Virus record (IMG/VR): IMGVR_UViG_3300021197_000634
Coordinates: 1-37,811 of that record
DNA: 37,811 nucleotides
Strand: one strand, 5' to 3'
Source of the DNA: a virus
Position 1 is the stretch's first letter; every line of letters starts with the position of its first letter. A program made the position numbers and the translations under genes. Below are positions 10,324-36,927 of this stretch, piece after piece. A model generated the notes under the pieces. That model had not been told where the DNA came from, made no database searches, and saw only the letters and a program-made list of their open reading frames with translations.

Positions 10324-13190
10324 TAGTACTGAACGTTAATGGTGTAATTTTGGTGCCAGTACCTAGTAGTAGAGGCTTGGGTTGTGCAACGAGAAATCAA
10401 AACAAGGACATCGTTTTGTGATACTGATACACCTAGAGCTTCAAAGTCTCCAAACTTAGGAGTAGCGCTACTAGAGCTAAAAGTATCTGCAAGTGCTCCT
10501 AGCAAAACGCCTGTACCTGTTCCCGTGTATCTGTAAAGATAGCAATTAAATGCATCACTATTATATTCTGATGCAGAAGTTGTACCTGTAGTAGAGGTAG
10601 AAATAGCGTTTGACATAGAAACTTTAATGTCTACTGTGCCTGCTTCTGTAATAACGTGACCAGCTTTTAGAAACTGTACGTCCATGTTCATAGCTGTAGG
10701 AGCAGTAGATGTCTGCTTGTTCCAGCTACCGTACCCTGCAAACGAGGTGTTGGTAGGCCAGCGGTAAGAGGTATCAGTAGACGTAGTCAGCTGGTGTGAG
10801 CCTGCATATTGGTAGGTAAGCTGTGAGCCTCCACCACCCGCAGTGGCAAAAGACAGTTGCCCAGAGCCGTCGGTAACAAGGGCTTGCCCGTTAGTACCGT
10901 CTGCAGCAGGAAGTTTAAGAGTCCAGTCACTGGCAATAGTACTAGCGGCTTCAACCTTGATATAGTTTGAATCGTCTTCATCATAAAGAACAATACATGC
11001 AGGTGTAAGGCTTAGCTTTTGAATAGTCAAGGTCCCTTGTACAAGAGGGTTCTCCTGCTGAAGCACGCTTGTCCAAGCAAGTTGCCCAGAACCATTAGTC
11101 TTCAAGACCTGTGTGTTAGTACCGTCACCGTCTGGAAGGGTCAGAGTTGTGTCATTCGTAACAGACAGGGGAGCTTGAAGCGCCATGTAGTTAGTTCCGC
11201 CAAGAACAGCAGACTCGTACATCTTAAGAGCTCCTCCAAAAGTAGCCCCTCCTCTGAACAACAAGCTTGCAGAGTCTAGGGTAATAGAGTCAGCTTCAAT
11301 GACAACCGCATCCTCAGACACGCTTAGTGGGGTAACCATTGTACTAGCTCCATTGACATTAAAGTCAATCTGCCCGTCTACTGCACCAGCAGCTGTATCC
11401 TTTGCAACAAAGCTAATGTTACCATAGTCTGTAAGGCTTGTACCTCCACCACTAGTATCATCAAACCCAGTAGCATTTATCTTAAATATCTCTGCGCCGT
11501 TACCGAGCAAGGGGGTAGTACGGAGTCCTTCAATGAAAGACCAACCATCTCCAGTAGTCTGGCTACCCTGTCCGTAAATCGTAGGGCTATCCGCCGTGTC
11601 CTCTATAAAGGTAAGGCGAGACTCCATAGTTATGTTAGTAGTAATCTTGTTGGGTACATCCAAAGGACGTCCAGCCAAAACAAGAATCTTACCAGCGCTA
11701 CCGTCAGAGTGAATGACGTGTGCAACAGGTTGGATAGTATCCCCCGGGCTTGAAGAGCGAGTACTAGTAAGGTCACCTGGAGTGCTGCTTATGTACAAGA
11801 TATCCCCAGCAGTGTGACTGCTAGTATCAACGTCTTCTAACAAACCAGAGATAAGGATGTCACCTTTAGTCCCTGTGTTAATATCAGCCATGCAAACCCC
11901 GATAGAAGGAGTATCTGAAACGCCTCCTACAATGTCTTGGTCTGCCAAGTCAACTTCAGCAATGCCTTGTACAGTAGAGCCTGTAATGTAGACCGCTTGG
12001 CCTTTGGTAAAGTTAGTGCCGCTTGAGTTGTTGATTTGCAGAACAACGTTACCACTACCTCCTGCGTCTGCAGGTACAAAGTTACTACCATCCCAAGCAA
12101 GTACTTGGTCATTAGTAGGAGCAGCCGTAGCTACATCAACATCAGCTAGGTCGCCAATGTCGATTGTGCCAAACGAAGTAACGTTAAGAGAGTCTACCTT
12201 CAAGACTTCTGCTGCACCTGCAGTAGGAGCAAAAGCGTTAGTAGGAATAGTAAAGCCCGAGTCTACCCAGTCACTTCCGTCGTAGCGAAGCACGTTACCT
12301 GCAGCAGCGCCTGACGTGTTTACGTTAGATAGGTCGCCTACAGACTGTCCGTCTACAGAAGTAAGGTAGCTGTTCTCATCGAACGCAGGGTCAACTGTGA
12401 CCTGAATGATACCGTTAGTAGCATCAGATGCAATTACGCGAGCGACCCTCTGCTGGAAAGTTCCTGAAGTAGGAGCAGTATTAGTCAGCCCGCCTGCGGT
12501 GTTAGATACGTAGAGAACGTCGTCCGTAGAAAATGCAGACGTATCTAGGTCACCAATAATTCCGTCAGTAAGTACAATAAGTTTTGTATCTACTGGGGCC
12601 TCAAATGCGAGACCGATGCAACGAGAGTTGTTGTCAGTAGAACCGACACCCACCTCGTACAAACCTGAGCCAAAGTCAGAAGAGCCCGTACGCTTGACGG
12701 GGGTTCCTTTAACGACTGTGCCTGTTTGCCTCGTTGCAGAAAATCCAGAGAAGGGGCCATCAGCCACCCACTCGTTGGAAGCACCTATGTTGTAACGAAG
12801 AATAGCTCCGTGTACAGGGTTGGTGCTAAAAGGACTAACATCCACGTCTGCCAAAGAGCTCACGTTAAGTCCTGTAAATGGGTCACCCCAAGATACAACA
12901 CCTGAACCGTCAGTCTTCAAGACGTAGTTAGCCGTACCATCAGTGAGAGGCAACGTGTAGTTGCCCCCCACTGTGATACCGTTATGTAACGCGTTAATAA
13001 TCTCATTACCATCGGCGTCCTTTATCAAGAAGACGCTTCCACTATTAGTATCGGAAAGGGTCAGAATACGGTTAGTAGCACCGTCGACCAAGAAAGGAAT
13101 AGACGCACCGCCTCCCTGCACGCTAAACTGTCCGAAGATGTCGGAGTTAGCGAGTGACGAGAGACCTTGACGTGTATTAAACTTACCCAT
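10323..13190 (-). CDS. Tail-fibre/appendage protein, 955 aa
   Basis: This long beta-rich protein is built from short repeated modules ending in 'L-x-T/W-x-G-S-x-x-x-W'. Examples are NYVLKTDGSGVVSWGDP, GNVLRYDGSDWVDSG, NDQVLAWDGSNFVPADAG, TQVLKTNGSGQLAWTS and GQALVTDGSGQLSFAT. Such modules are common in fibres of marine phages. 'SLADVDV' and 'DLADVDVATA' elements alternate with them. The N-terminus (MGKFNTRQGLSSLANSDIFG) is probably the virion attachment end, and the C-terminus (SRCTTQASTTRYWHQNYTIN) the distal tip. No enzymatic domain is visible. It is the last fibre gene of the cassette and overlaps the lysis group. Its partners are likely the 580-aa and 407-aa proteins, which share the same modules. 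Confidence 0.8.
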   Translation of the reverse strand: MGKFNTRQGLSSLANSDIFGQFSVQGGGASIPFLVDGATNRILTLSDTNSGSVFLIKDADGNEIINALHNGITVGGNYTLPLTDGTANYVLKTDGSGVVSWGDPFTGLNVSSLADVDVSPFSTNPVHGAILRYNIGASNEWVADGPFSGFSATRQTGTVVKGTPVKRTGSSDFGSGLYEVGVGSTDNNSRCIGLAFEAPVDTKLIVLTDGIIGDLDTSAFSTDDVLYVSNTAGGLTNTAPTSGTFQQRVARVIASDATNGIIQVTVDPAFDENSYLTSVDGQSVGDLSNVNTSGAAAGNVLRYDGSDWVDSGFTIPTNAFAPTAGAAEVLKVDSLNVTSFGTIDIGDLADVDVATAAPTNDQVLAWDGSNFVPADAGGSGNVVLQINNSSGTNFTKGQAVYITGSTVQGIAEVDLADQDIVGGVSDTPSIGVCMADINTGTKGDILISGLLEDVDTSSHTAGDILYISSTPGDLTSTRSSSPGDTIQPVAHVIHSDGSAGKILVLAGRPLDVPNKITTNITMESRLTFIEDTADSPTIYGQGSQTTGDGWSFIEGLRTTPLLGNGAEIFKINATGFDDTSGGGTSLTDYGNISFVAKDTAAGAVDGQIDFNVNGASTMVTPLSVSEDAVVIEADSITLDSASLLFRGGATFGGALKMYESAVLGGTNYMALQAPLSVTNDTTLTLPDGDGTNTQVLKTNGSGQLAWTSVLQQENPLVQGTLTIQKLSLTPACIVLYDEDDSNYIKVEAASTIASDWTLKLPAADGTNGQALVTDGSGQLSFATAGGGGSQLTYQYAGSHQLTTSTDTSYRWPTNTSFAGYGSWNKQTSTAPTAMNMDVQFLKAGHVITEAGTVDIKVSMSNAISTSTTGTTSASEYNSDAFNCYLYRYTGTGTGVLLGALADTFSSSSATPKFGDFEALGVSVSQNDVLVLISRCTTQASTTRYWHQNYTINVQY

Positions 13191-17243: not shown

Positions 17244-17275
17244 CAAATATAAGACAAAAACCCCACCCTTCCTAA
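17244..17275 (-). promoter_or_regulatory. Probable promoter of the fibre cassette
   Basis: A perfect Bacteroidota -7 element, TATATTTG, lies on the minus strand at 17251-17244. At the expected distance (21 bp) upstream there is only TTA in place of TTG, at the apex of the terminator hairpin. The predicted leader is about 35 nt. Confidence 0.5.
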
Positions 17276-17284
17276 GAAGAGCGG
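17256..17284 (-). terminator. Rho-independent terminator after the 54-aa gene
   Basis: On the minus strand a stem CCCGCTCTTC / GAAGGGTGGG (with G:T pairs) is followed by GTTTTTG. It starts about 30 bp after the stop of the 54-aa gene. Confidence 0.7.
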
Positions 17285-17313
17285 GATAAATGTCTCGGTT
17301 AGAGTGCACAAGC

Positions 17314-18072: not shown

Positions 18073-18103
18073 AAAAAAGGGAGGAAGCGCAATGCAACCT
18101 CCC
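18073..18103 (-). terminator. Rho-independent terminator after the 247-aa gene
   Basis: On the minus strand GGGAGG (18103-18098) pairs with CCTCCC (18084-18079) and is followed by TTTTTTATT. It lies 24 bp after the stop of the 247-aa gene. Confidence 0.8.
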
Positions 18104-18126
18104 TCTTTCAATGTTTGGGGCTAGTA

Positions 18127-19585: not shown

Positions 19586-19617
19586 TAAAGGTATGAAAAG
19601 TAGGGGAGACTACCAAA
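19586..19617 (-). promoter_or_regulatory. Promoter for the 229-aa gene, fused to a terminator
   Basis: On the minus strand TTTGG (19617-19613) and TACCTTTA (19593-19586) leave 20 bp between TTG and the -7 element. The -7 element ends 4 bp before the ATG, predicting a leaderless mRNA. The TTTGG lies at the apex of the preceding terminator hairpin. Confidence 0.72.
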
Positions 19618-19625
19618 GCCTCCCC
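19597..19625 (-). terminator. Terminator after the tailspike gene
   Basis: On the minus strand GGGGAGGCT, loop TTGGT and AGTCTCCCC form a 9-bp stem followed by TACTTTTC. It starts 9 bp after the tailspike stop. The U-tract is interrupted, so termination may be partial. Confidence 0.7.
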
Positions 19626-19633
19626 TCTTTCGA

Positions 19634-22600
19634 TTAGGACAATCCTGAGATTGATACGTTCTCAATGTCGTTAGACTGCATGCTCAAGAGGTTAAGCTTG
19701 GTGTAGTTCTGGTCAGCAGGCATTACTTGGTTACGAATCATGTTAGAGAATGAGTCGTTCGTACCATCACCCATGAGGTAAACCTGAGTTGCCGAAGCAG
19801 AAGTCAGGTTGTTGCGAGAGAAGCCCGAGTTGTTGTAGCTCGTGTGGGAGGGACGGTACGTGTTGCCGACTTTGTAGTCGTTCACCCAACCGACCGGGTC
19901 CGTAATCATCATCTCAATCTCAGTGCTGTTAGGCATGCCCGCGCCACGTTCAAGCGTCGTGGTGACGAACGAGGCAACCTTGCCATGGAAGCTACGGTTA
20001 GTGCCGCGACCACCAATGTTCATCGAACCAGTGACGGAGCGGTCCATGCGGCCACCAGTGGTGCTCCACGTTCCCCACCCTTGAGCCGTTGGGTTAGGAT
20101 TGAAGTTCCATCCCGAGCCGGTGTTGAACATCAAACGGATGTCGAAGGCAGCAGCCAAGTTGGTTGCAGTGGCGTTGGTTCCGCTGAGGCGAGTGCCGTT
20201 GAAGCCAACGTAGACGCCGTTCCAAGAACCAGCGCTCACTCTGGCGAGGAGGTACTCGTTACGAGCGCCATCGCGTCCCCAACCGAAGTACAGGTTCCTA
20301 CCTGAGTCTATTCTGAGGTAGATGTTGTCGTCCGTGCTGCCGGCGCCCTCTCCAATGTTCCAGATGTGCTGGTTGGAGTTGTTCCCATCAGGTGAGAACA
20401 CGATAGTCGTAGCCCAAGGACGGGCAGCAATGTCACTAGAGGTGTTGCCAGCCGTGCCGGGAGCAGACGTGGTGACACTCTGATAGTCCATCAACATCGG
20501 GTTGTAGTAGAGGGAGTTACTAATCATCTCTGCCCGCTCGGAGGAACCAGAGAAGTCTACTGCCTTAGTCCAAGAGGTCGCGTTCTGACTGACATCGTTA
20601 GTTGGGTCGTTAGTAACGTTAAGCGTAATCGTTCCAGTATCGCTACCAAAATCGTTTGCCTTAGTCACGTTCAACACATGTTGGATGTCAACAGCGTCTG
20701 TAATAGTCTCCGCAGTACCAATAATAGCAAAGCCGTTATCAGCGTATCCAGTGGGAACTCCTGTAACGTTGTACGTGTTGGTGTCACCTTGTGGCTTGTA
20801 CTGAATGTTTACTGCACTTCCTTCGCCGATGGTGTAGGTGATGTCGGTAAACGTTGGCGCGTAGTTAGCGTCAGTGTCTGTTCCCTTCTCATTCCACACA
20901 ACGTTGATAGAGTTACCAAACACACCTCCTTGTGGAGCAGCAGTACCGTTGTTCACGAAGCTCGTGTCAGGGTGATAGAACTGTGTGCTAGTAGTGTCAT
21001 CTGCGTAAGTGATAGCAGTAGCTGTACCAGAACCGCCTTCAACGCCGTCGATAAACTGCGCTTCTTCCAAGGTCGTGAACAGTGGGTACTCGTAGTTACC
21101 ATCTGGAGATTCAATGTACCACCATCCTGTGATGTTAGCACCTTCTTCAGCGGCAGACATATCATACTTAGTCAACGCAGGAATACGTGAAGCAGCGTGG
21201 TTGTCTTCGTTTGAACCGATAAAAATCTTCTGAGCTGTTCCGTCAAAAGGAATAACCTTTGTAGCCATCAACACGTTGTCTGTCTCGTGCCACATCTCAA
21301 GCGTGTTATCCAGCTTGTAGCGGAAAGAGATAAGGCCAAGGTTAACGCTTGCTGTGCCGTATCCAATGTCAGTGCCGTTACCATTCGGGTCATAGCTCTT
21401 AGCTGCGGCAGTGTTCCACGTCCAATCAACTCCCCCGTTTGTAACAGACTTAAGAATCTCTGTGGTCGTGTACTTCAACGGACTAGTCAACATGTCTTCT
21501 GCATTGCTCTGTCCCGTAGCTGTACCAGAGTACCCGAATCCAATAGTCTCACTTCTACCGAAGTAATCCATGTTAAGGGTAATCTTCTCACCGGGGCTGA
21601 TGCTCATGCGAGAGCGGATAACAGTAGACTCCTCGAGTCCGCCAGCCCACTCACCATCAAGGTTATCATCCTCATCGGCAACAACCTCCCAAGTCTCAGT
21701 ACGCTCAGTCATTACAGGGAAAGAGCCTTGGTTAAAGGCAGCCCACTGAATCATAACAGAGGTGCCAGAAATAGTATCGTTAGACTTAGCAATCAACGAG
21801 TAACCTCCAGATACAATCTCGAACAAGTACAAGTACCCGTCTTGACCAAACCTAATAGCAACCTGTCCGTTAGGCATAGCATACTCTCCGGAAATATTTC
21901 CGTTTGCAGTAACGGTGATTCCGCTAGATTGAGATTGACTCCAGCTTGTTGCTTCACCTGATAGGTTACCGTTGAGGAAGAATCCTTGACTCCAGTTAGA
22001 CGCTAGCAGAGCGTCGGTACCAGACTGGGTTGCCTCAGCAGCACCCCAAAGTCCAATCATAAAGTCTATCTCAGGCGTAAGAGTCCAAATAAACTCATGC
22101 CCTTTCTCTAATGCTTCACCATTATAGAAGGGATTGAAGGCTCTATAAGTGTTTCCAATTATAGCTTGGTTAATTTGCGTTCCTGCTTGGCTTCCGTAAG
22201 AGATGTACCAGTTGTTTGCGATAGCGGGCAGGCTACCACCACTAGAACTATCACCGTTGACACCTACCTCAGAGACAAGGAAAGACTTGTAGTCAATCAA
22301 GCTCATGTTGAACGCAGCGTTAAGGCTGTTGTTAGCAGAGGCAAGGTCGTTACCCGCAACTGCTCCATTGATGCAGACGTTACCGTGTGCCAATCCTCTC
22401 AGTTGAATACGGTCAGTAGACTTTTCAATAATCTCAATCTTACCGTTAACAATGTTAGATTGCAACTGGTTGATAGAGTAAGAGTTGATAGCTGTACCAC
22501 CAACACCCTCGTGCAACGTGACAGTTTGCTTAAGCGTGTCCACAACTACGTCCAAGTCTGGAACCTGCATGATGTGGTTGCTGAATGGCAACTCATTGAA

Positions 22601-25075
22601 GTTTCCTTGCAGTGGCGGCTTAATAGCCTTGTATGTAATAGACTGGTAAGAGTTGTCACCAAAGGACATCCGCAAGTTAGTCACGTCTACTTCTGTCAGG
22701 TCAATAGCGTAGTCCTGTCCAATAAAGCCAACGTCGTCTACCTTGATGATGTTCTTGTCGTTGTCGGGCAAAGCGCCTACAGCACTAGTGACAAGGAATC
22801 CAACCTTCTCAGTGTTAGAACCGAGACCGGTGTAGTGCACCTGTGTGTCGAGAATCTCAGCAATAAAGCGGAACGCTGGGTTCAAGCTAATGCTAGTACC
22901 AAGCAAGTTGTACGCCTCGTTAATCTGGATGGACGCCTTAGCATCACCAGTGTTACCGATGCCGTTCAACGCACTACGGTTGTTATCGTAGAGACCACAG
23001 TCACGGAGAGTAGCGTTAGCTGAGCCCCAAGCACAGAAGCCTGCGTTCCAGTTACCGTTTACTTCGTTCTGTGAGAACTTGTTGTTGATACCGCCGATGC
23101 AGAGAAGACCGTTGTTCGCGTTGTACGAACTGATGTTCATAGATGAGGTGATGTTCTGAGAACCCCCAGATGCACCAGCTGCAATGTAGATACCAGACTC
23201 GATGTTCTGAGTAGCCACGTTACGCGTAACAAACCCAAATCCTCCGATACCACAGTCTTGGATACGGAAGCCACGGAGGTTGTTAGTAGCTGAGTTACCT
23301 ACCACACGAACAATCGTGCTGTTCTCCAAGCGCATGGCACCACCATTAGAGGCGTGTGTTCCTGCGTAGAAAGCCTGCAAGTCAGCAGCGTCAGAGTCGT
23401 AGCCGAGTACACCAGAGGTAGCGCTGTCAAGCACAGTGTGCAATGCAGTACCATCCCATCCGTTGTTCTCAAACGTACAGTCATCAATCTCAACCCTAGC
23501 CAAACTACGGAGGTGCAATCCATAACCACCGGCATTCTTAAACGTAATGTTCTTGAACTTCAGAGTCTTGGTAGCGTCAGTCCCCACAAAAGTTACAAGG
23601 CTGCCATTAGTAGAGTTGTACTGGCTGTACTGGATAGTAGAACCAAACGCACCTGTAATAGACAAAGACTTGCTAGATGGAATGACAATGTCGCTAGTAA
23701 TAGAGAAGACACCATCAATAAAAATAGAGTCACCGTCTGATGCTGCAGCAATAGCCGTCTCCAAAGTGTGGAAAGGGTACAATGCAGAACCGTTGCGAGT
23801 GTCGCTTACAAACCCAGCCTTGACGTAGATGTCGTAGGTGTTGAGTGAAGAAGCCTCGATAGCGGCGTTAGTCGCAGCCTTAACGGGGATGTGGTCGTAC
23901 GCAACAGTAGTGGCGTTGTAGATAATCATGTCACCGTACTCGTAGTCTACACCATCGTAGGTGCCAGACACAGAGACCCGGTAGAATGCGCCGTTTACTT
24001 CGCTACCTGTGAGCGTAATGTCAGGAGTGTTAGTGTCAGCATCCCAAGCACCTTGGTACTCAGAGCCTGATACCAACGCGTCGAGCGACTCTTGGTAGGC
24101 AAGGAACTTGTCAGTAAACAAGCGGTTACGTACAGAAGTCTGGTAACGCGCTACTCCATTAGCTAGAGTGTCCCCCTCACAAACAAGGAGAAGTCCCTGC
24201 TTAACTTCCTGGTTATCCACGGTTGCTACCTTGTAAATAGATGCGTGGTTGGTAGGCCCCGCCTCAATATCAAGAGGGTGGTCAAAGTACCAAGACAAGT
24301 CTTCGTTAACGTTGATACCGTCGTGAGACAAGTACTGAACGTAAACAAGGGTGCCGTCTACAGACAGCTCGTACTTGAGTCGCTGTGTAGCAGGGACCTG
24401 TTCTGCAACACGGGTAGTGATACCTACACCAGAGATGTTGAACGGGAAGAAGTTGTCTCCGTCGTATGCAATAGATGTGTCGTCAACAGGCTGCCCTCCC
24501 AAGGGTACTGTGCCGTAGTCGCCAAACACACGTGACGTAGGCTGAATCAATCCTTCACCGGGAGCTTGGTTAGCTGTGTCGGACTGGTCCTTCATAGCAC
24601 CCCATACTGGGAAGAGGTTGTGGTTCTTAGTAAAGTCCTTGAAGTAAATGTTAGCAGCACCTGAGCTAATCTTGTGCTGGTCTCCCAAGTGGTAAGAGTT
24701 CAGTGTAGTCTGGATAGCCTTCTTAGCCTCAAGCCTGTCAGTGTCAGGATTGTACGTGAAGTACTCGGTGAGGGTAGGCTTTGTAATGAGGGCTTGGATG
24801 TGTGCAATAACTGCAGTACGGTCCATTCCAAGGTCATTCACAAGACGCTGTCCATTCTCGTCATCAATACGGTTGATGTTCAGCTTCTTAAAGAACCTAC
24901 GGAAATTGACGTCTGAGCCTTTCTCAAACAATACGTTACTACTAATGACAATTCGATTAGCAAGAGTAGGGTGCTCTGCTACTGTGAGATTACCAATAGC
25001 CTTGGCAGACACGTTACTTCCATCGAAGTGTACGAGCCCTGATACAAGGTCTGAATAGATTTTAATTCGTGCCAT
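19634..25075 (-). CDS. Giant tailspike with beta-helix and lectin-like domains, 1813 aa
   Basis: The N-terminal ~400 residues (MARIKIYSDLVSGLVHFDGS) are probably the virion attachment part. Residues about 418-820 are a right-handed parallel beta-helix of the pectate-lyase type. They start with TRNGSALYPFHTLETAIAAA and GDSIFIDGVFSI, and have repeated turns such as FKNITFKNAGGYGLHLRSLA and VEIDDCTFENNG. Such domains bind or cleave polysaccharide in tailspikes. Several beta-sandwich segments follow (about 930-1390), then an Ig/cadherin-like unit (about 1400-1490, FTDITYTIGEGSAVNI). A C-terminal LamG/ConA-like module (about 1500-1813) carries WATTIVFSPDGNNSNQHIWN and RSFHGKVASFVTTTLERG. The C-terminal module resembles one often seen in marine phage fibres. 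Its DNA looks richer in GC than the rest, which suggests recent exchange. No catalytic residues can be assigned. Confidence 0.82.
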   Translation of the reverse strand: MARIKIYSDLVSGLVHFDGSNVSAKAIGNLTVAEHPTLANRIVISSNVLFEKGSDVNFRRFFKKLNINRIDDENGQRLVNDLGMDRTAVIAHIQALITKPTLTEYFTYNPDTDRLEAKKAIQTTLNSYHLGDQHKISSGAANIYFKDFTKNHNLFPVWGAMKDQSDTANQAPGEGLIQPTSRVFGDYGTVPLGGQPVDDTSIAYDGDNFFPFNISGVGITTRVAEQVPATQRLKYELSVDGTLVYVQYLSHDGINVNEDLSWYFDHPLDIEAGPTNHASIYKVATVDNQEVKQGLLLVCEGDTLANGVARYQTSVRNRLFTDKFLAYQESLDALVSGSEYQGAWDADTNTPDITLTGSEVNGAFYRVSVSGTYDGVDYEYGDMIIYNATTVAYDHIPVKAATNAAIEASSLNTYDIYVKAGFVSDTRNGSALYPFHTLETAIAAASDGDSIFIDGVFSITSDIVIPSSKSLSITGAFGSTIQYSQYNSTNGSLVTFVGTDATKTLKFKNITFKNAGGYGLHLRSLARVEIDDCTFENNGWDGTALHTVLDSATSGVLGYDSDAADLQAFYAGTHASNGGAMRLENSTIVRVVGNSATNNLRGFRIQDCGIGGFGFVTRNVATQNIESGIYIAAGASGGSQNITSSMNISSYNANNGLLCIGGINNKFSQNEVNGNWNAGFCAWGSANATLRDCGLYDNNRSALNGIGNTGDAKASIQINEAYNLLGTSISLNPAFRFIAEILDTQVHYTGLGSNTEKVGFLVTSAVGALPDNDKNIIKVDDVGFIGQDYAIDLTEVDVTNLRMSFGDNSYQSITYKAIKPPLQGNFNELPFSNHIMQVPDLDVVVDTLKQTVTLHEGVGGTAINSYSINQLQSNIVNGKIEIIEKSTDRIQLRGLAHGNVCINGAVAGNDLASANNSLNAAFNMSLIDYKSFLVSEVGVNGDSSSGGSLPAIANNWYISYGSQAGTQINQAIIGNTYRAFNPFYNGEALEKGHEFIWTLTPEIDFMIGLWGAAEATQSGTDALLASNWSQGFFLNGNLSGEATSWSQSQSSGITVTANGNISGEYAMPNGQVAIRFGQDGYLYLFEIVSGGYSLIAKSNDTISGTSVMIQWAAFNQGSFPVMTERTETWEVVADEDDNLDGEWAGGLEESTVIRSRMSISPGEKITLNMDYFGRSETIGFGYSGTATGQSNAEDMLTSPLKYTTTEILKSVTNGGVDWTWNTAAAKSYDPNGNGTDIGYGTASVNLGLISFRYKLDNTLEMWHETDNVLMATKVIPFDGTAQKIFIGSNEDNHAASRIPALTKYDMSAAEEGANITGWWYIESPDGNYEYPLFTTLEEAQFIDGVEGGSGTATAITYADDTTSTQFYHPDTSFVNNGTAAPQGGVFGNSINVVWNEKGTDTDANYAPTFTDITYTIGEGSAVNIQYKPQGDTNTYNVTGVPTGYADNGFAIIGTAETITDAVDIQHVLNVTKANDFGSDTGTITLNVTNDPTNDVSQNATSWTKAVDFSGSSERAEMISNSLYYNPMLMDYQSVTTSAPGTAGNTSSDIAARPWATTIVFSPDGNNSNQHIWNIGEGAGSTDDNIYLRIDSGRNLYFGWGRDGARNEYLLARVSAGSWNGVYVGFNGTRLSGTNATATNLAAAFDIRLMFNTGSGWNFNPNPTAQGWGTWSTTGGRMDRSVTGSMNIGGRGTNRSFHGKVASFVTTTLERGAGMPNSTEIEMMITDPVGWVNDYKVGNTYRPSHTSYNNSGFSRNNLTSASATQVYLMGDGTNDSFSNMIRNQVMPADQNYTKLNLLSMQSNDIENVSISGLS

Positions 25076-25081
25076 AATAGA

Positions 25082-25756
25082 TTATGTGAAAAGGTACCAT
25101 GCGAAGCCGGCCACAAAGAGGTCGCCTGCAACAGTAGAGTTAACTTGAAGACAGACGCTTACTGGCGAAGTGTCTTCGATAAAGAAAGAGAGCGAAGGGT
25201 TGAGTACATAGTCAATCTCTGCCCCTTGGGTGAGAGTACCGGCCACGTCTTCAATGAAGGTGATGTCTCCGTTACCCTGCGTAATTTTAAGACGGACACT
25301 TAGCTCTGCATTGTCCTCATCAGGATTAAACCGAAGAGCAGCACGGAAGTCTCCGTAAGCAGACTCAGTCAGTCCCCCCAACAACAATCCGTAAGGGTCA
25401 GCCTGTGTACCAGAACCTCCAACGCCTACAGCGTTAGCATCAACCATAGCCTGCGGACGTTGGTCAATGATACCATCGGCACTAGGTGTCAGGTTTACAT
25501 CGAGCCAAACGTTGGCATCATCGTCAGTAATTTCGGTAAGTGTACCTGTTGCGGTACTGTCTGTAAACGCGTCGTTCACAATAGCAAAGTAGCCCTTGGC
25601 TGCGCTAATGTTATCGAGCGTGTCCTGCTGGTTGAATAAGAGGTCCCCGTCGGCACCTGCAATAATCTCCCGAGCTAGGTTGGCTTCTTGTGGGTCATCA
25701 AAGTAAATGGGTCTCCCCTTATACATGACCTTAGCCTTTGTTGTGCGTCTGCCCAT
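25082..25756 (-). CDS. Structural protein upstream of the tailspike, 224 aa
   Basis: The protein begins basic (MGRRTTKAKVMYKGRPIYFD) and continues with a helical patch (DPQEANLAREIIAGADGDLL), a long acidic beta-rich middle (DDDANVWLDVNLTPSADGII) and a beta-rich C-terminus ending FVAGFAWYLFT. I do not recognise the family. It shares the transcript with the giant tailspike, 6 bp downstream, and has its own promoter. It could be the adaptor that joins the spike to the virion, or a minor head/tail protein. The N-terminal basic arm and beta-sandwich body would suit an adaptor. That is inference. Confidence 0.72.
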   Translation of the reverse strand: MGRRTTKAKVMYKGRPIYFDDPQEANLAREIIAGADGDLLFNQQDTLDNISAAKGYFAIVNDAFTDSTATGTLTEITDDDANVWLDVNLTPSADGIIDQRPQAMVDANAVGVGGSGTQADPYGLLLGGLTESAYGDFRAALRFNPDEDNAELSVRLKITQGNGDITFIEDVAGTLTQGAEIDYVLNPSLSFFIEDTSPVSVCLQVNSTVAGDLFVAGFAWYLFT

Positions 25757-25795
25757 AGCTGTGGTTTTAGTAAGATTTAGAAATTTCCGTAGGAG

Positions 25796-25827
25796 CTAAG
25801 GTACGAAAAAAGGGGCCCCGAACCAAA
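25796..25827 (-). promoter_or_regulatory. Promoter for the 224-aa and tailspike genes, fused to a terminator
   Basis: On the minus strand TTTGG (25827-25823) and TACCTTAG (25803-25796) leave a 20-bp spacer between TTG and the -7 element. The TTTGG is the hairpin loop of the terminator. The predicted leader is about 35 nt. Confidence 0.65.
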
Positions 25828-25837
25828 TCGAAACCCC
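25806..25837 (-). terminator. Terminator after the 263-aa gene
   Basis: On the minus strand GGGGTTTCGA, loop TTTGGT and TCGGGGCCCC form a 10-bp stem with three G:T pairs. A run of six T follows. It begins about 25 bp after the stop. Confidence 0.82.
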
Positions 25838-25863
25838 TTCCTTCATTTATATCTATAGGACTA

Positions 25864-26655
25864 TCAGCTAAAAGCTTTCAACTTTGCTTGGATGTCCAAC
25901 AACATAGAGCTGTTCTTCTTGCTCTTCAAGAATCGGATAGCTTGTTCCATGTCGTCTCCGAGAGCCTCGTCTCCGAACAGGAATGTATTACCGCTCTTAC
26001 GAAGCACTCCGCACTCAATGCAGTCCCAGATAAAGGAGACAGTCTCGAGGTTCTTGTCAGTAGTAACGCGGATGAACTCAGATGCATCAGCTTCAAGCAA
26101 GTCCTCCAACTCCAACTCAATCTGCTGTGCAGACAAGCCTTGTGTTTGAGTACCGTAAGCCTTGAGAACCTGCACTGCACGCTCTGCGTCGTCAGACAAC
26201 AAGATGAGTTGCTTGTAGGCGTCTTTGCGCAAACGTGTACCAGACACTGCTGCGGCTTCTTCTTTCTGTGGGTCACTGATGTAGTAACGTCCCTTAGAAG
26301 AGTTCTCTTGGTCAGACACGTGTGGGTGTTGTGACACAAACTTGAACTTAATGTAGTCCATCACGTTGATGGGGTTACCTTCTTCGTCGGTTGCAATGTT
26401 CAACTCTACGCCCTGTGCAGGTACGTCGACGGTAAGGTTGGCGTAAAAGCGCTTAGCCTCACGAGACCAAGTAGGGTCTGTAGGAGAAATACCAAGAACT
26501 TCGGGGAGCCACTTCTTCTGCTCTGCGATTGTCAATCCTTTAAGGATGTCACCGCCTTTTAGGTAAACTGAACCAATGCGTCGCTTGGCGTCTACGTAAA
26601 CATCGTCAGGCAAATTAGTAGTATTTGGCCGACGGTAAATGAATACACTCTTCAT
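25864..26655 (-). CDS. Conserved crAss-like structural protein, 263 aa
   Basis: The opening (MKSVFIYRRPNTTNLPDDVY followed by VDAKRRIGSVYLKGGDILKG) and the section KKWLPEVLGISPTDPTWSRE, AKRFYANLTVDVPAQGVELN, then INVMDYIKFKFVSQHPHVSD follow a pattern I recall from a conserved gene placed after the capsid gene in crAss-like phages. In that pattern an 'R-R-I-G' stretch is followed by 'GL...E...LP..LG....D..W', 'Y..N....VP..G..L' and 'DYI.F.F...HP.V'. The last third is helical and acidic. No enzyme motif is seen, and I infer a capsid-associated or neck structural role. It has its own promoter and a terminator on either side, so its dose may be set separately. Confidence 0.75.
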   Translation of the reverse strand: MKSVFIYRRPNTTNLPDDVYVDAKRRIGSVYLKGGDILKGLTIAEQKKWLPEVLGISPTDPTWSREAKRFYANLTVDVPAQGVELNIATDEEGNPINVMDYIKFKFVSQHPHVSDQENSSKGRYYISDPQKEEAAAVSGTRLRKDAYKQLILLSDDAERAVQVLKAYGTQTQGLSAQQIELELEDLLEADASEFIRVTTDKNLETVSFIWDCIECGVLRKSGNTFLFGDEALGDDMEQAIRFLKSKKNSSMLLDIQAKLKAFS

Positions 26656-26659
26656 GAAA

Positions 26660-26700
26660 ATAATTATACTGTGTAAGACCCCGGTTCAAACGACTGGGGT
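26660..26700 (-). promoter_or_regulatory. Leader hairpin upstream of the 263-aa gene
   Basis: In the predicted 5' leader, CCCC and GGGG enclose a short loop containing TTTG (26677-26699 approximately). No U-tract follows. It could stabilise the mRNA or mark a second, weaker promoter (TTG followed by TAATTATT at 20 bp). Evidence is limited. Confidence 0.3.
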
Positions 26701-26715
26701 AGATTCTAGATATGA

Positions 26716-26747
26716 CGAAGGTATAACAAAAAAGGGCAACCTCCAAA
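26716..26747 (-). promoter_or_regulatory. Promoter for the 263-aa gene, fused to a terminator
   Basis: On the minus strand TTTGG (26747-26743) and TACCTTCG (26723-26716) leave 20 bp between TTG and the -7 element. The TTTGG is in the loop of the terminator. The leader is about 55-60 nt. Confidence 0.62.
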
Positions 26748-26756
26748 TGGTCACCC
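26728..26756 (-). terminator. Terminator overlapping the stop of the 88-aa gene
   Basis: On the minus strand GGGTGACC, loop ATTTGGA and GGTTGCCC are followed by six T. The TGA stop of the 88-aa gene lies within the 5' arm, so ribosomes reaching the end of that gene could affect folding. Confidence 0.78.
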
Positions 26757-27017
26757 CTTTTTCTTACGTCGTTTAGCGCGTGATACGCGGTCTGGCTTAC
26801 CACCAGCGTTAGCTTTGCTTGCCTTTTCTCTAACCTTGCTAGCCTTCTCAGACTTGCTCATCTCCCCTGAAGTCTTGGGAGTCTTAGAGTTTACACGTTT
26901 AGAAGGACGGCAGTAGGGGTATGGCCGGTCGCTACCGCCCTTTGCAGACTTACGCCCACAGTCTTTACCCGTACGGACATCCTTCCAATCCTCTTTGAAC
27001 CAGCGTCTTAAGCTCAT
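26751..27017 (-). CDS. Small basic DUF5872-like protein, 88 aa
   Basis: The protein contains WFKEDWKDVRTGKDCGRKSA, then GGSDRPYPYCRPSKRVNSKT and PKTSGEMSKSEKASKVREKA. The pattern 'WF.E.W.D......CGR......YP.CRPS.RV...TPKT..E' matches a family (DUF5872, by recall) found in marine phages and algal viruses, function unknown. Two Cys and a very basic tail suggest nucleic-acid contact or charge neutralisation in the head. Its ATG overlaps the preceding stop (ATGA), and it is the last of four small genes sharing one promoter after the capsid gene. Confidence 0.78.
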   Translation of the reverse strand: MSLRRWFKEDWKDVRTGKDCGRKSAKGGSDRPYPYCRPSKRVNSKTPKTSGEMSKSEKASKVREKASKANAGGKPDRVSRAKRRKKKG

Positions 27018-27178
27018 TTCTTCTTCTTCTTATATCCAGAGGCAGTCTTCTTCTTACCACCGCTGTCGGGCTTTGTGCCCTTACACACCTGAACTGCGTA
27101 GCCGTTAGCGTAAGCTGACGGATACACCTTATACTTCCTCTTTGCGGCTGCCTTGCCGCGTGCACATAACTTACCCAT
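27014..27178 (-). CDS. Small basic protein, 54 aa, marine-virus family
   Basis: Read directly: the frame opens MGKLCARGKAAAKRKYKVYP, continues SAYANGYAVQVCKGTKPDSG, and ends with a five-Lys tail before TGA at 27016-27014. The motif 'LCARGKAAAKRK..VYPSAYAN.YA..VCKG' is one I recall from many marine phage and algal-virus proteins of unknown function. The two Cys flank a short conserved core. The start overlaps the stop of the 83-aa gene (TAATG) and the stop overlaps the next start (ATGA), so translation is coupled on both sides. It is probably a minor virion or DNA-condensing protein, by analogy with its neighbours. Confidence 0.8.
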   Translation of the reverse strand: MGKLCARGKAAAKRKYKVYPSAYANGYAVQVCKGTKPDSGGKKKTASGYKKKKK

Positions 27179-27429
27179 TATCCAATAAAGTTTTTGGGAC
27201 GGTTCTTAGCCTTGGGCGCTTTCCCTCGCGTACCCACACCATTCTCGTCAAACTTGTAACCTGTCATGTTCTCGCACATGTTACGCTTTTCACAGCGGTG
27301 TCCGTTGAACTTGCCTTCAGGTTTAGTCTTGCCGCCGTGCAGCATCATCTCACCTTTGGTCATGCCGCCATACGCGTACATATCCTTAGCGGACTTGACA
27401 TCACTAATCTTCTTCTTCATCATTAACAT
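27178..27429 (-). CDS. Small Lys/Gly/Met-rich protein, 83 aa
   Basis: The protein begins MLMMKKKISDVKSAKDMYAY and has two aromatic/small-GG motifs (YAYGGMTKGEMMLHGGKTK), then HRCEKRNMCENMTGYKFDEN and a basic end (KAPKAKNRPKNFIG). It has two Cys and several Met. The first ATG (27429) and a later one (27423) are both possible; they differ by two residues. The family is not recognised, but the GG motifs are like those in the cargo-type proteins at 482-3423. Its stop overlaps the next start as TAATG. It probably ends up in the virion, given that it is co-transcribed with DUF6321- and DUF5872-like genes. Confidence 0.75.
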   Translation of the reverse strand: MLMMKKKISDVKSAKDMYAYGGMTKGEMMLHGGKTKPEGKFNGHRCEKRNMCENMTGYKFDENGVGTRGKAPKAKNRPKNFIG

Positions 27430-27686
27430 TTCCAGCGACGACGTGCTTTACGTAGTCTTGAGTTAGGGTCCTTAGCAGCCTTGGGAAACTTCTTCATCTG
27501 TCCTGCACTGCGTGCGCAGTAGGACTTCTTGCGTGCACCTCCTCCCGGCTGTGGAGCTTTGAGCTTAGAACCTGTGCGTTTGTTAATACGTGCTCGGCCT
27601 TTGGCAGTGAGTCCACCGCTTTTAGACTTGCATCCGTTCTTAATGCCGCAGCCTTTCATAGCTCCTTTCTTCTTTTTAGTAGGCAT
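27423..27686 (-). CDS. Small basic DUF6321-like protein, 87 aa
   Basis: The protein carries a Cys/Lys-rich start (KGCGIKNGCKSKSGGLTAKG), then SKLKAPQPGGGARKKSYCAR and SAGQMKKFPKAAKDPNSRLR, and ends RKARRRWKC. The pattern 'GGLTAKGR.R.N...GSKLK.PQP.GG.RKKS.CAR..GQM.......R..KARRRWKC' fits the DUF6321 family as I recall it. That family is widespread in marine phages and of unknown function, often near capsid genes. The four Cys could bind metal. It is the first gene after the capsid terminator and is preceded by a near-leaderless promoter, which suggests strong timed expression. Confidence 0.82.
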   Translation of the reverse strand: MPTKKKKGAMKGCGIKNGCKSKSGGLTAKGRARINKRTGSKLKAPQPGGGARKKSYCARSAGQMKKFPKAAKDPNSRLRKARRRWKC

Positions 27687-27691
27687 AGTCT

Positions 27692-27724
27692 TAAAGATAC
27701 AAACAAAAAAGGGGAGAATCCAAA
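27692..27724 (-). promoter_or_regulatory. Promoter for the four small basic genes, fused to a terminator
   Basis: On the minus strand TTTGG (27724-27720) and TATCTTTA (27699-27692) leave 21 bp between TTG and the -7 element. The -7 element is 5 bp from the ATG at 27686, giving a leaderless or nearly leaderless mRNA. Confidence 0.72.
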
Positions 27725-27736
27725 TGGACTCCCCCC
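27705..27736 (-). terminator. Terminator after the capsid gene
   Basis: On the minus strand GGGGAGTCC, loop ATTT and GGATTCTCCCC (with a TT bulge) are followed by six T. It lies about 24 bp after the capsid stop. Confidence 0.82.
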
Positions 27737-27759
27737 TTCTTCAGAAAATCTTGTGGCTA

Positions 27760-30322: not shown

Positions 30323-30354
30323 TAAATTTAGGGTAGGTAAGTTACACTACCAAA
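30323..30354 (-). promoter_or_regulatory. Promoter for scaffold and capsid genes
   Basis: On the minus strand TTTGG (30354-30350) and TAAATTTA (30330-30323) leave 20 bp between TTG and the -7 element; the -7 element ends 7 bp before the ATG at 30315. Only a weak GACT/AGTC hairpin without a proper U-tract precedes it, so readthrough from portal is likely. Confidence 0.65.
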
Positions 30355-36805: not shown

Positions 36806-36837
36806 TAAAGATAATAGGTATGTGCCATACTTCCAAA
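36806..36837 (-). promoter_or_regulatory. Promoter for the 36801-30387 late gene run
   Basis: On the minus strand TTTGG (36837-36833) and TATCTTTA (36813-36806) leave 20 bp between TTG and the -7 element. The -7 element ends 4 bp before the ATG at 36801, predicting a leaderless mRNA. No hairpin overlaps it; the terminator is 35 bp upstream. Confidence 0.75.
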
Positions 36838-36870: not shown

Positions 36871-36898
36871 ACAAAAAGGGCCTCCTTGCGGAAGCCCT
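36871..36898 (-). terminator. Terminator after the 73-aa gene
   Basis: On the minus strand GGGCTTCC, loop GCAA and GGAGGCCC (8-bp stem, stable GNRA-type loop) are followed by TTTTTG. It lies about 30 bp after the stop. Confidence 0.87.
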
Positions 36899-36927
36899 CT
36901 TCATCTTTCACAAAATCAACACACCAA

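Follow-up and report, generated by a model that had tools for sequence, protein, structure and literature searches.

Probable intrinsic terminators overlaid on Bacteroidota-type promoters between late genes of a crAss-like phage

Can one short stretch of phage DNA both end a transcript and start the next? The question is raised by a 37.8-kb virus record (the window, 37,811 nucleotides in all), in which an earlier note had described four minus-strand junctions where a terminator hairpin carries the -33 element of the downstream promoter in its loop. This DNA represents the late module of a crAss-like phage, with all of its long genes on the minus strand; they encode terminase, portal, a 364-aa protein, the major capsid protein (MCP), small basic proteins, a 263-aa protein, an 1813-aa tail-fibre-like protein and tail proteins including a muzzle protein. 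The MCP is of the crAss type (PF23898, 4e-81), and the crAss markers used, namely the major capsid, portal, terminase and muzzle proteins, place the window in the Crassvirales (PF25731, 1e-18, and phrog_11589, 6547 and 6681, in addition to PF23898). The small basic proteins encoded after the MCP (27423-27686 and 26751-27017) match DUF6321 and DUF5872. An Rfam search of the window gave no match, and a search of phage collections with the fused-site loci and the 263-aa protein gave no useful host assignment; the relatives of the phage point to a marine origin. These relatives comprise clade A, which consists of IMG/VR records G001-G010 (MCP 96-99% identical) together with G017, which was identified by its 263-aa and 257-aa genes, and more distant IMG/VR records whose MCP is 74-85% identical.

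At each of the four junctions a TTG, a spacer, a -7 element and a hairpin are present on the minus strand. After the MCP gene (J1), the hairpin GGGGGGAGTCC-ATTT-GGATTCTCCCC and its first Ts occupy 27708..27739 (-23 kcal/mol), with TTG at the apex (27721..27723) and, after a 21-nt spacer, the -7 element TATCTTTA (27692..27699), whose TA is followed 13 nt later by an ATG. After the 88-aa gene (J3), the hairpin GGGTGACC-ATTTGGA-GGTTGCCC (26731..26759) holds TTG in its loop (26744..26746), 20 nt from TACCTTCG (26716..26723) in the promoter of the 263-aa gene. The same spacer of 20 is found after the 263-aa gene (J4), where GGGGTTTCGA-TTTGGT-TCGGGGCCCC (25809..25840) has TTG in the loop (25824..25826) and is followed by TACCTTAG (25796..25803), and after the tail-fibre gene (J5), where AGGGGAGGCT-TTGGT-AGTCTCCCCT (19602..19626), with TTG at 19614..19616, is followed by TACCTTTA (19586..19593) and an ATG (19581) 12 nt after the TA. 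The -33 element thus lies in the loop at J3, J4 and J5 as had been claimed, but at J1 it straddles loop and stem, since the minimum free energy loop is ATTT and the GG pairs inside the 3' arm. Nor is the apex TTTGG constant, as the earlier note held; what is invariant is TTG together with the 20-nt spacer.

Both elements resemble known types. The hairpins fold at -14 to -23 kcal/mol (RNAfold), and each has a T-rich stretch behind it, so that stable GC-rich hairpins are followed by U-tracts as in intrinsic terminators: five or more of eight letters are T at J1, J3 and J4, and the tract at J5 reads TACTTTT. The promoter consensus of Bacteroides is TTTG near -33 and TAnnTTTG at -7 (PMC7366714), and -7 boxes of this type occur in the window (TATCTTTA, TACCTTCG, TACCTTAG, TACCTTTA and TATATTTG) and at orthologous sites (TAGCTTTG, TACCTTTG and TATCTTTG), although the four main window boxes are each off the consensus at one position (TACCTTCG and TACCTTAG are imperfect matches). 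TTG or TTTG stands about 20 nt upstream, and the spacing peaks at 20 both in the clade and in Bacteroidota genomes. The terminator hairpin and the next promoter fit together into ~45 letters.

An explicit rule was applied to both strands of the 37.8 kb, requiring TAnnTT at 19-21 nt from a TTG, T-rich DNA between the two and a hairpin with dG <= -12 kcal/mol centred on the TTG. It returned exactly the four sites (27723, 26746, 25826 and 19616), and none in 60 dinucleotide-preserving shuffles. The simpler pattern TTTGG-N-TAnCTT has five matches on the minus strand and none on the plus strand, four of the matches being these sites and the fifth a stand-alone promoter at 36808-36837. The plain terminator and promoter prediction that the earlier note had proposed as a check showed no excess over shuffles, with 17 sigma-70 promoters against 18.7 and 15 terminators against 14.9; such a generic scan alone would miss the fused sites because the promoter type is that of Bacteroidota and not sigma-70. 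A promoter-blind finder returned 69 non-redundant terminator hairpins in clade A (dG <= -12), with a TTG tip and a TAnnTT in 19, the TTG alone in 8, the -7 alone in 3 and neither in 39 (Fisher 4.5e-8), and those followed by a -7 element have TTG 19-21 nt upstream in 18/22 cases against 5/65 elsewhere (p = 9.6e-11); because the instances are related, the Fisher and binomial values are more extreme than independent cases would give, and the layout is carried by about nine distinct junctions. The spacer among co-occurring sites is 20 nt in 15, 19 in two and 21 in one. More generally, TTTG and TAnnTT in the clade's intergenic DNA are most often 20 nt apart (21 cases), and a hairpin loop is centred within 1.5 nt of the middle base of the TTG at 27/45 clade promoters.

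Other crAss-like clades show no association between TTG tip and -7 element (p = 0.4), nor do 120 contigs that had been gathered for their TTTGG tips alone (p = 0.14), and across all viral contigs hairpins tipped with TTTGG belong mostly to unrelated phages and show no -7 association. Tips of this kind in so many unrelated phages are what might suggest that a common terminator loop has fallen beside promoter-like DNA by accident. That explanation, which we regard as scarcely credible, is refuted by the shuffles, the sharp spacing peak and the clade-wide recurrence, barring an unsuspected bias. The stop-then-restart layout is real rather than a chance alignment, and the clade-wide comparison of TTG, -7 element and hairpin upholds both the overlap of terminator and promoter and the proposal that the 3' arm and U-tract make up the promoter spacer.

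The freedom of the stem sequence, with TTG and spacing kept, is likewise borne out by comparing junctions within the clade. After the 263-aa gene (J4) there are eight distinct stems, tipped with TTTGGT, TTGC, TTGT or ATTGC and always 20 nt from TAnnTT. Five diverged stems in the same register are 100% paired, compared with 88% in shuffles; TTG is invariant, and at four pairs both partners have changed. Such values are attained in 2-7 of 500 shuffles, and sliding the partner by one column lowers pairing to 60-66%. Compensatory change, as expected of an intrinsic terminator, is thus seen at J4.

Whether selection acts on hairpin and promoter as one combined device, as the earlier note argued, can be judged from junctions at which relatives differ. 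Before the 263-aa gene, TTG-N19/20-TAnnTT is present in 12/12 contigs, but a hairpin lies on it in only 4/12 (the window, G005, G010 and G009). In G003, G004, G006, G008 and G017 the promoter adjoins the stop codon without a terminator hairpin, and in G001/G002 a terminator tipped with ACTAC is followed by a separate promoter. G007 (L012, 4584-4660) is an intermediate between fused and separate arrangements: its old hairpin keeps a relic TTTGG tip, and the promoter has shifted to CTTTTGG where the U-tract ends, at a distance of 20 nt from TACATTAG. Before the 109-aa gene the relatives keep TTTG-N20-TATATTTG, while the stem decays in G006 (-11.1 vs -19.4 kcal/mol). The junction before the 257-aa gene does behave as a combined device would, the window and G006/G008 having both elements and G003/G004 neither.

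Free variation of the apex on a retained hairpin had been named as an observation that would count against the proposal, and the result is divided. Relatives that keep the -7 element keep the TTG, whereas in the clades with 74-85% identity the hairpin after the MCP gene is kept, its tip varies freely and no -7 element stands at the right place; the TTG therefore tracks the promoter and not the hairpin. Where no promoter overlaps a terminator, its tip is mostly UUCG, GAAA, GCAA or of the CAA type, and several such terminators have a stand-alone TTTGG promoter just downstream. Selection on the promoter only, combined with frequent overlay of a terminator, explains the pattern: there are two overlaid elements, of which the promoter is the more conserved. 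In more distant clades (L048-L085) a conserved TAGAAAnTCAnTAGATAnAATAGAT stands just before the next ATG after the MCP stop, in place of TTG/TAnnTTTG, and is possibly another promoter type or a leader element.

Several further hairpins and promoters lie in the window, all on the minus strand. A fifth and weaker case had been proposed at J7, and it is present: the hairpin (17260..17287) has the apex TTA and a stem of opposite polarity, with a C-rich 5' arm, and the perfect -7 element TATATTTG (17244..17251) lies 21 nt from the apex. Its support is better than the earlier note supposed, because in relatives the orthologous junction bears TTTG at the apex, at exactly 20 nt from TATATTTG or one of its variants. 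No further fused site was found by the explicit rule in 17205-482, about 17 kb of tail genes, and all of these may therefore be transcribed as one operon from the promoter at 17275-17244. The tip of the terminator at J6 (18078..18104; apex ATTGC, of the CAA type in relatives) includes TTG, but a proper -7 element and a recognisable promoter are lacking. The stand-alone promoter, TTG-N20-TATCTTTA (36806..36836), lacks a centred hairpin and lies downstream of a separate terminator with a GCAA tip (36876-36899); its TA is followed 12 nt later by an ATG.

Upstream of the gene that precedes the MCP gene lies the promoter J0, TTG-N20-TAAATTTA (30323..30353). Its orthologues (G001 8401, G003 17517, G006 3231, G007 1952, G009 16932 and G017 9847) carry unrelated inverted repeats, CATACG..CGTATG or CCCCCAG..CTGGGGG, without a U-tract, the loop centre lying 2.5-4.5 nt past the TTG and the ATG always 15 nt after the TA; the repeat is possibly an operator or a 3'-end structure. 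Since U-tracts are weak in the relatives of J7 (ATTTATCC) and absent from J0 hairpins, a hairpin tipped with TTG need not always be a terminator. At many promoters the ATG falls 11-13 nt after the TA of the -7 element (19593-19581, 36813-36801 and 27699-27686 in the window, and in G005, G006, G003 and G017). By the geometry of Flavobacterium, in which the -7 box TAnnTTTG spans -12 to -5 (PMC9723704), late mRNAs from these promoters are predicted to be leaderless and to start on the ATG.

As a sequence pattern, the layout recurs in unrelated phages including phiCrAss001. Among viral contigs TTTGG-N4-8-CCCCTTTTT-N3-7-TAnnTTnG has 34 matches, compared with 12 when the -7 element is moved 14 nt further. 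Those outside clade A, with spacers of 19-20, include sites in 13 low-GC contigs (GGGGGGTTTGGAAAAATCCCCCTTTTTTATTATATTTG) and in L304/L312, L311, L322 and L325; one such site lies between genes that, by eye from their translations, are SSB-like and DnaB-like helicase genes. The cultured phiCrAss001 of Bacteroides intestinalis (MH675552) has one fused site at ~25,020-25,073, at the gp26/gp27 junction, with the -7 element TAGGTTTG. In its genome (L292) TTG-N19-21-TAnnTTTG sites at 11587, 16913, 25038, 27040, 35084 and 41938, upstream of portal, tailspike, lysis and MCP-module genes, are candidate late promoters, and sites of the form TTG-N20-TAnnTTTG stand alone ahead of late genes. No fused TTG site was found in phi14:2, B124-14, FCL-2 or 11b; in Flavobacterium phage 11b (L417) a terminator is followed directly by TATATTTG at 12583, 21068 and 28668, none of the three having TTG at its tip. 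Among bacterial genomes the pattern has a spacer of 20 in 19/39 Bacteroidota matches vs 2/32 from other phyla (taxa from record titles), and the hairpin is present in only 6/39 of the Bacteroidota matches.

Taken together, the letters and their conservation make it very probable that these sites are intrinsic terminators overlaid on host-type promoters, of the Bacteroidota sigma-A-like kind, which split the late region into units with their own starts and ends. We infer termination, initiation, the polymerase and the purpose alike as follows. The upstream late transcript would stop at the hairpin and U-tract; in the double-stranded DNA the tip TTG would act as the -33 element, the 3' arm, U-tract and a few further bases as a fixed ~20-bp spacer and the TAnnTTTG-like DNA as the -7 element, so that the next transcript would start ~20 nt past the 3' end of the first. 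The host RNA polymerase would respond to both signals; in phiCrAss001 it is likely the host enzyme that transcribes the middle and late genes, as suggested for phi14:2 (PMC8375218). The arrangement may serve to give separate expression levels to the units of a dense structural module (MCP; small basic proteins; 263-aa protein; tail fibre; 257/247-aa proteins; tail genes) while using almost no space.

What polymerase does at the shared DNA could be more elaborate, and recapture after termination, blocking of the promoter and cruciform control all fit the geometry. E. coli RNA polymerase can be retained after termination, diffuse in one dimension and re-initiate nearby (PMC6978380; PMC6978322), and such re-initiation is said to depend on the distance from terminator to promoter, which is near zero here. 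It is nevertheless rather unlikely that a polymerase, once its transcript is released at the hairpin, stays on the DNA, retains sigma or binds it anew and is captured again by the promoter on which it stands: a stand-alone promoter serves the 263-aa gene in 8/12 contigs, so coupling is not essential there, and the sequence reads alike for recapture and for plain overlap. Recapture is an addition to the reading of overlaid terminators and promoters, not an alternative anatomy, and the version in which a single recruitment would transcribe successive late units as separate RNAs in set ratios is unlikely. Polymerase that reads through the hairpin, as the earlier note suggested, or that pauses there might also block the embedded promoter, such that strong upstream transcription would silence the next unit. 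By geometry the pause site falls inside the promoter spacer, but terminators as strong as these (-14 to -23 kcal/mol) argue for little read-through, and we hold this to be decidedly unlikely.

The inverted repeat could instead regulate the promoter as DNA, extruded as a cruciform or bound by a protein as a palindrome, with termination secondary. When a phage N4 promoter hairpin was placed between the -35 and -10 elements of an rrnB promoter, that promoter lost its activity, an effect that depended on gyrase (PMC4496689), and the J0 promoters do carry an inverted repeat without a U-tract. Most hairpins, however, have a U-tract behind them, the repeat is absent from many orthologous promoters, and the stems are unrelated between junctions, which leaves no common protein site; control of this kind is thus very unlikely. 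That the hairpins are promoters for a virion RNA polymerase of the phage, in the manner of N4, appears highly improbable. CrAss-like phages carry such an enzyme (PMC8375218) and that of N4 recognises hairpins (PMC4496689), yet orthologous sites have TTG-N20-TAnnTT free of any hairpin, the genes are late structural ones attributed to the host polymerase, and the hairpins are centred at about -33 on long stems, unlike the short stem and 3-nt loop near -11 of N4-type promoters.

If late transcription is organised by terminators overlaid on host-type promoters, a simple rule (tip TTG, 20 nt, TAnnTTTG) would locate the borders of transcripts in crAss-like phages and other phages of Bacteroidota, where maps of transcript ends are few. 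Within one clade the same promoter is found naturally in fused, unfused and half-lost form, and these sites would be a natural substrate for the open question of whether polymerase re-initiates after termination in vivo. They could also supply very short stop-and-restart parts for Bacteroidota expression systems.

Each half of the arrangement has a familiar counterpart. Like Bacteroidota sigma-ABfr promoters, the phage sites have TTG/TTTG, a ~20-nt spacer and a TAnnTT(T/A)G box, and the same spacing is found in Bacteroidota chromosomes and in the candidate late promoters of phiCrAss001; unlike them, the phage sites place the -33 element in a hairpin tip, and their -7 element is often TAnnTTAG or TACCTT. 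As in other intrinsic terminators a GC-rich hairpin and U-tract follow a stop codon, for example that of the MCP gene, but here the 3' arm and U-tract double as promoter spacer, and the U-tract is weak at some sites. In the T7 group, as in LUZ100 (PMC10134795), the MCP unit has its own nearby promoter and is directly followed by a strong terminator. There promoter and terminator are separate and a phage RNA polymerase is used, whereas here the terminator contains the next promoter. In the open-access literature we found nothing direct on terminator/promoter overlap in phages, and no repeated overlay of fixed geometry with the -33 element at the tip, although an open-access subset gives weak evidence of novelty. 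Overlap of terminator and promoter is not new in kind. In E. coli the frd terminator and the ampC attenuator overlap, and these adjacent operons share a terminator/promoter region in which the promoter comes before the terminator; here, in contrast, the terminator overlaps the spacer of the downstream promoter, and the arrangement is repeated many times.
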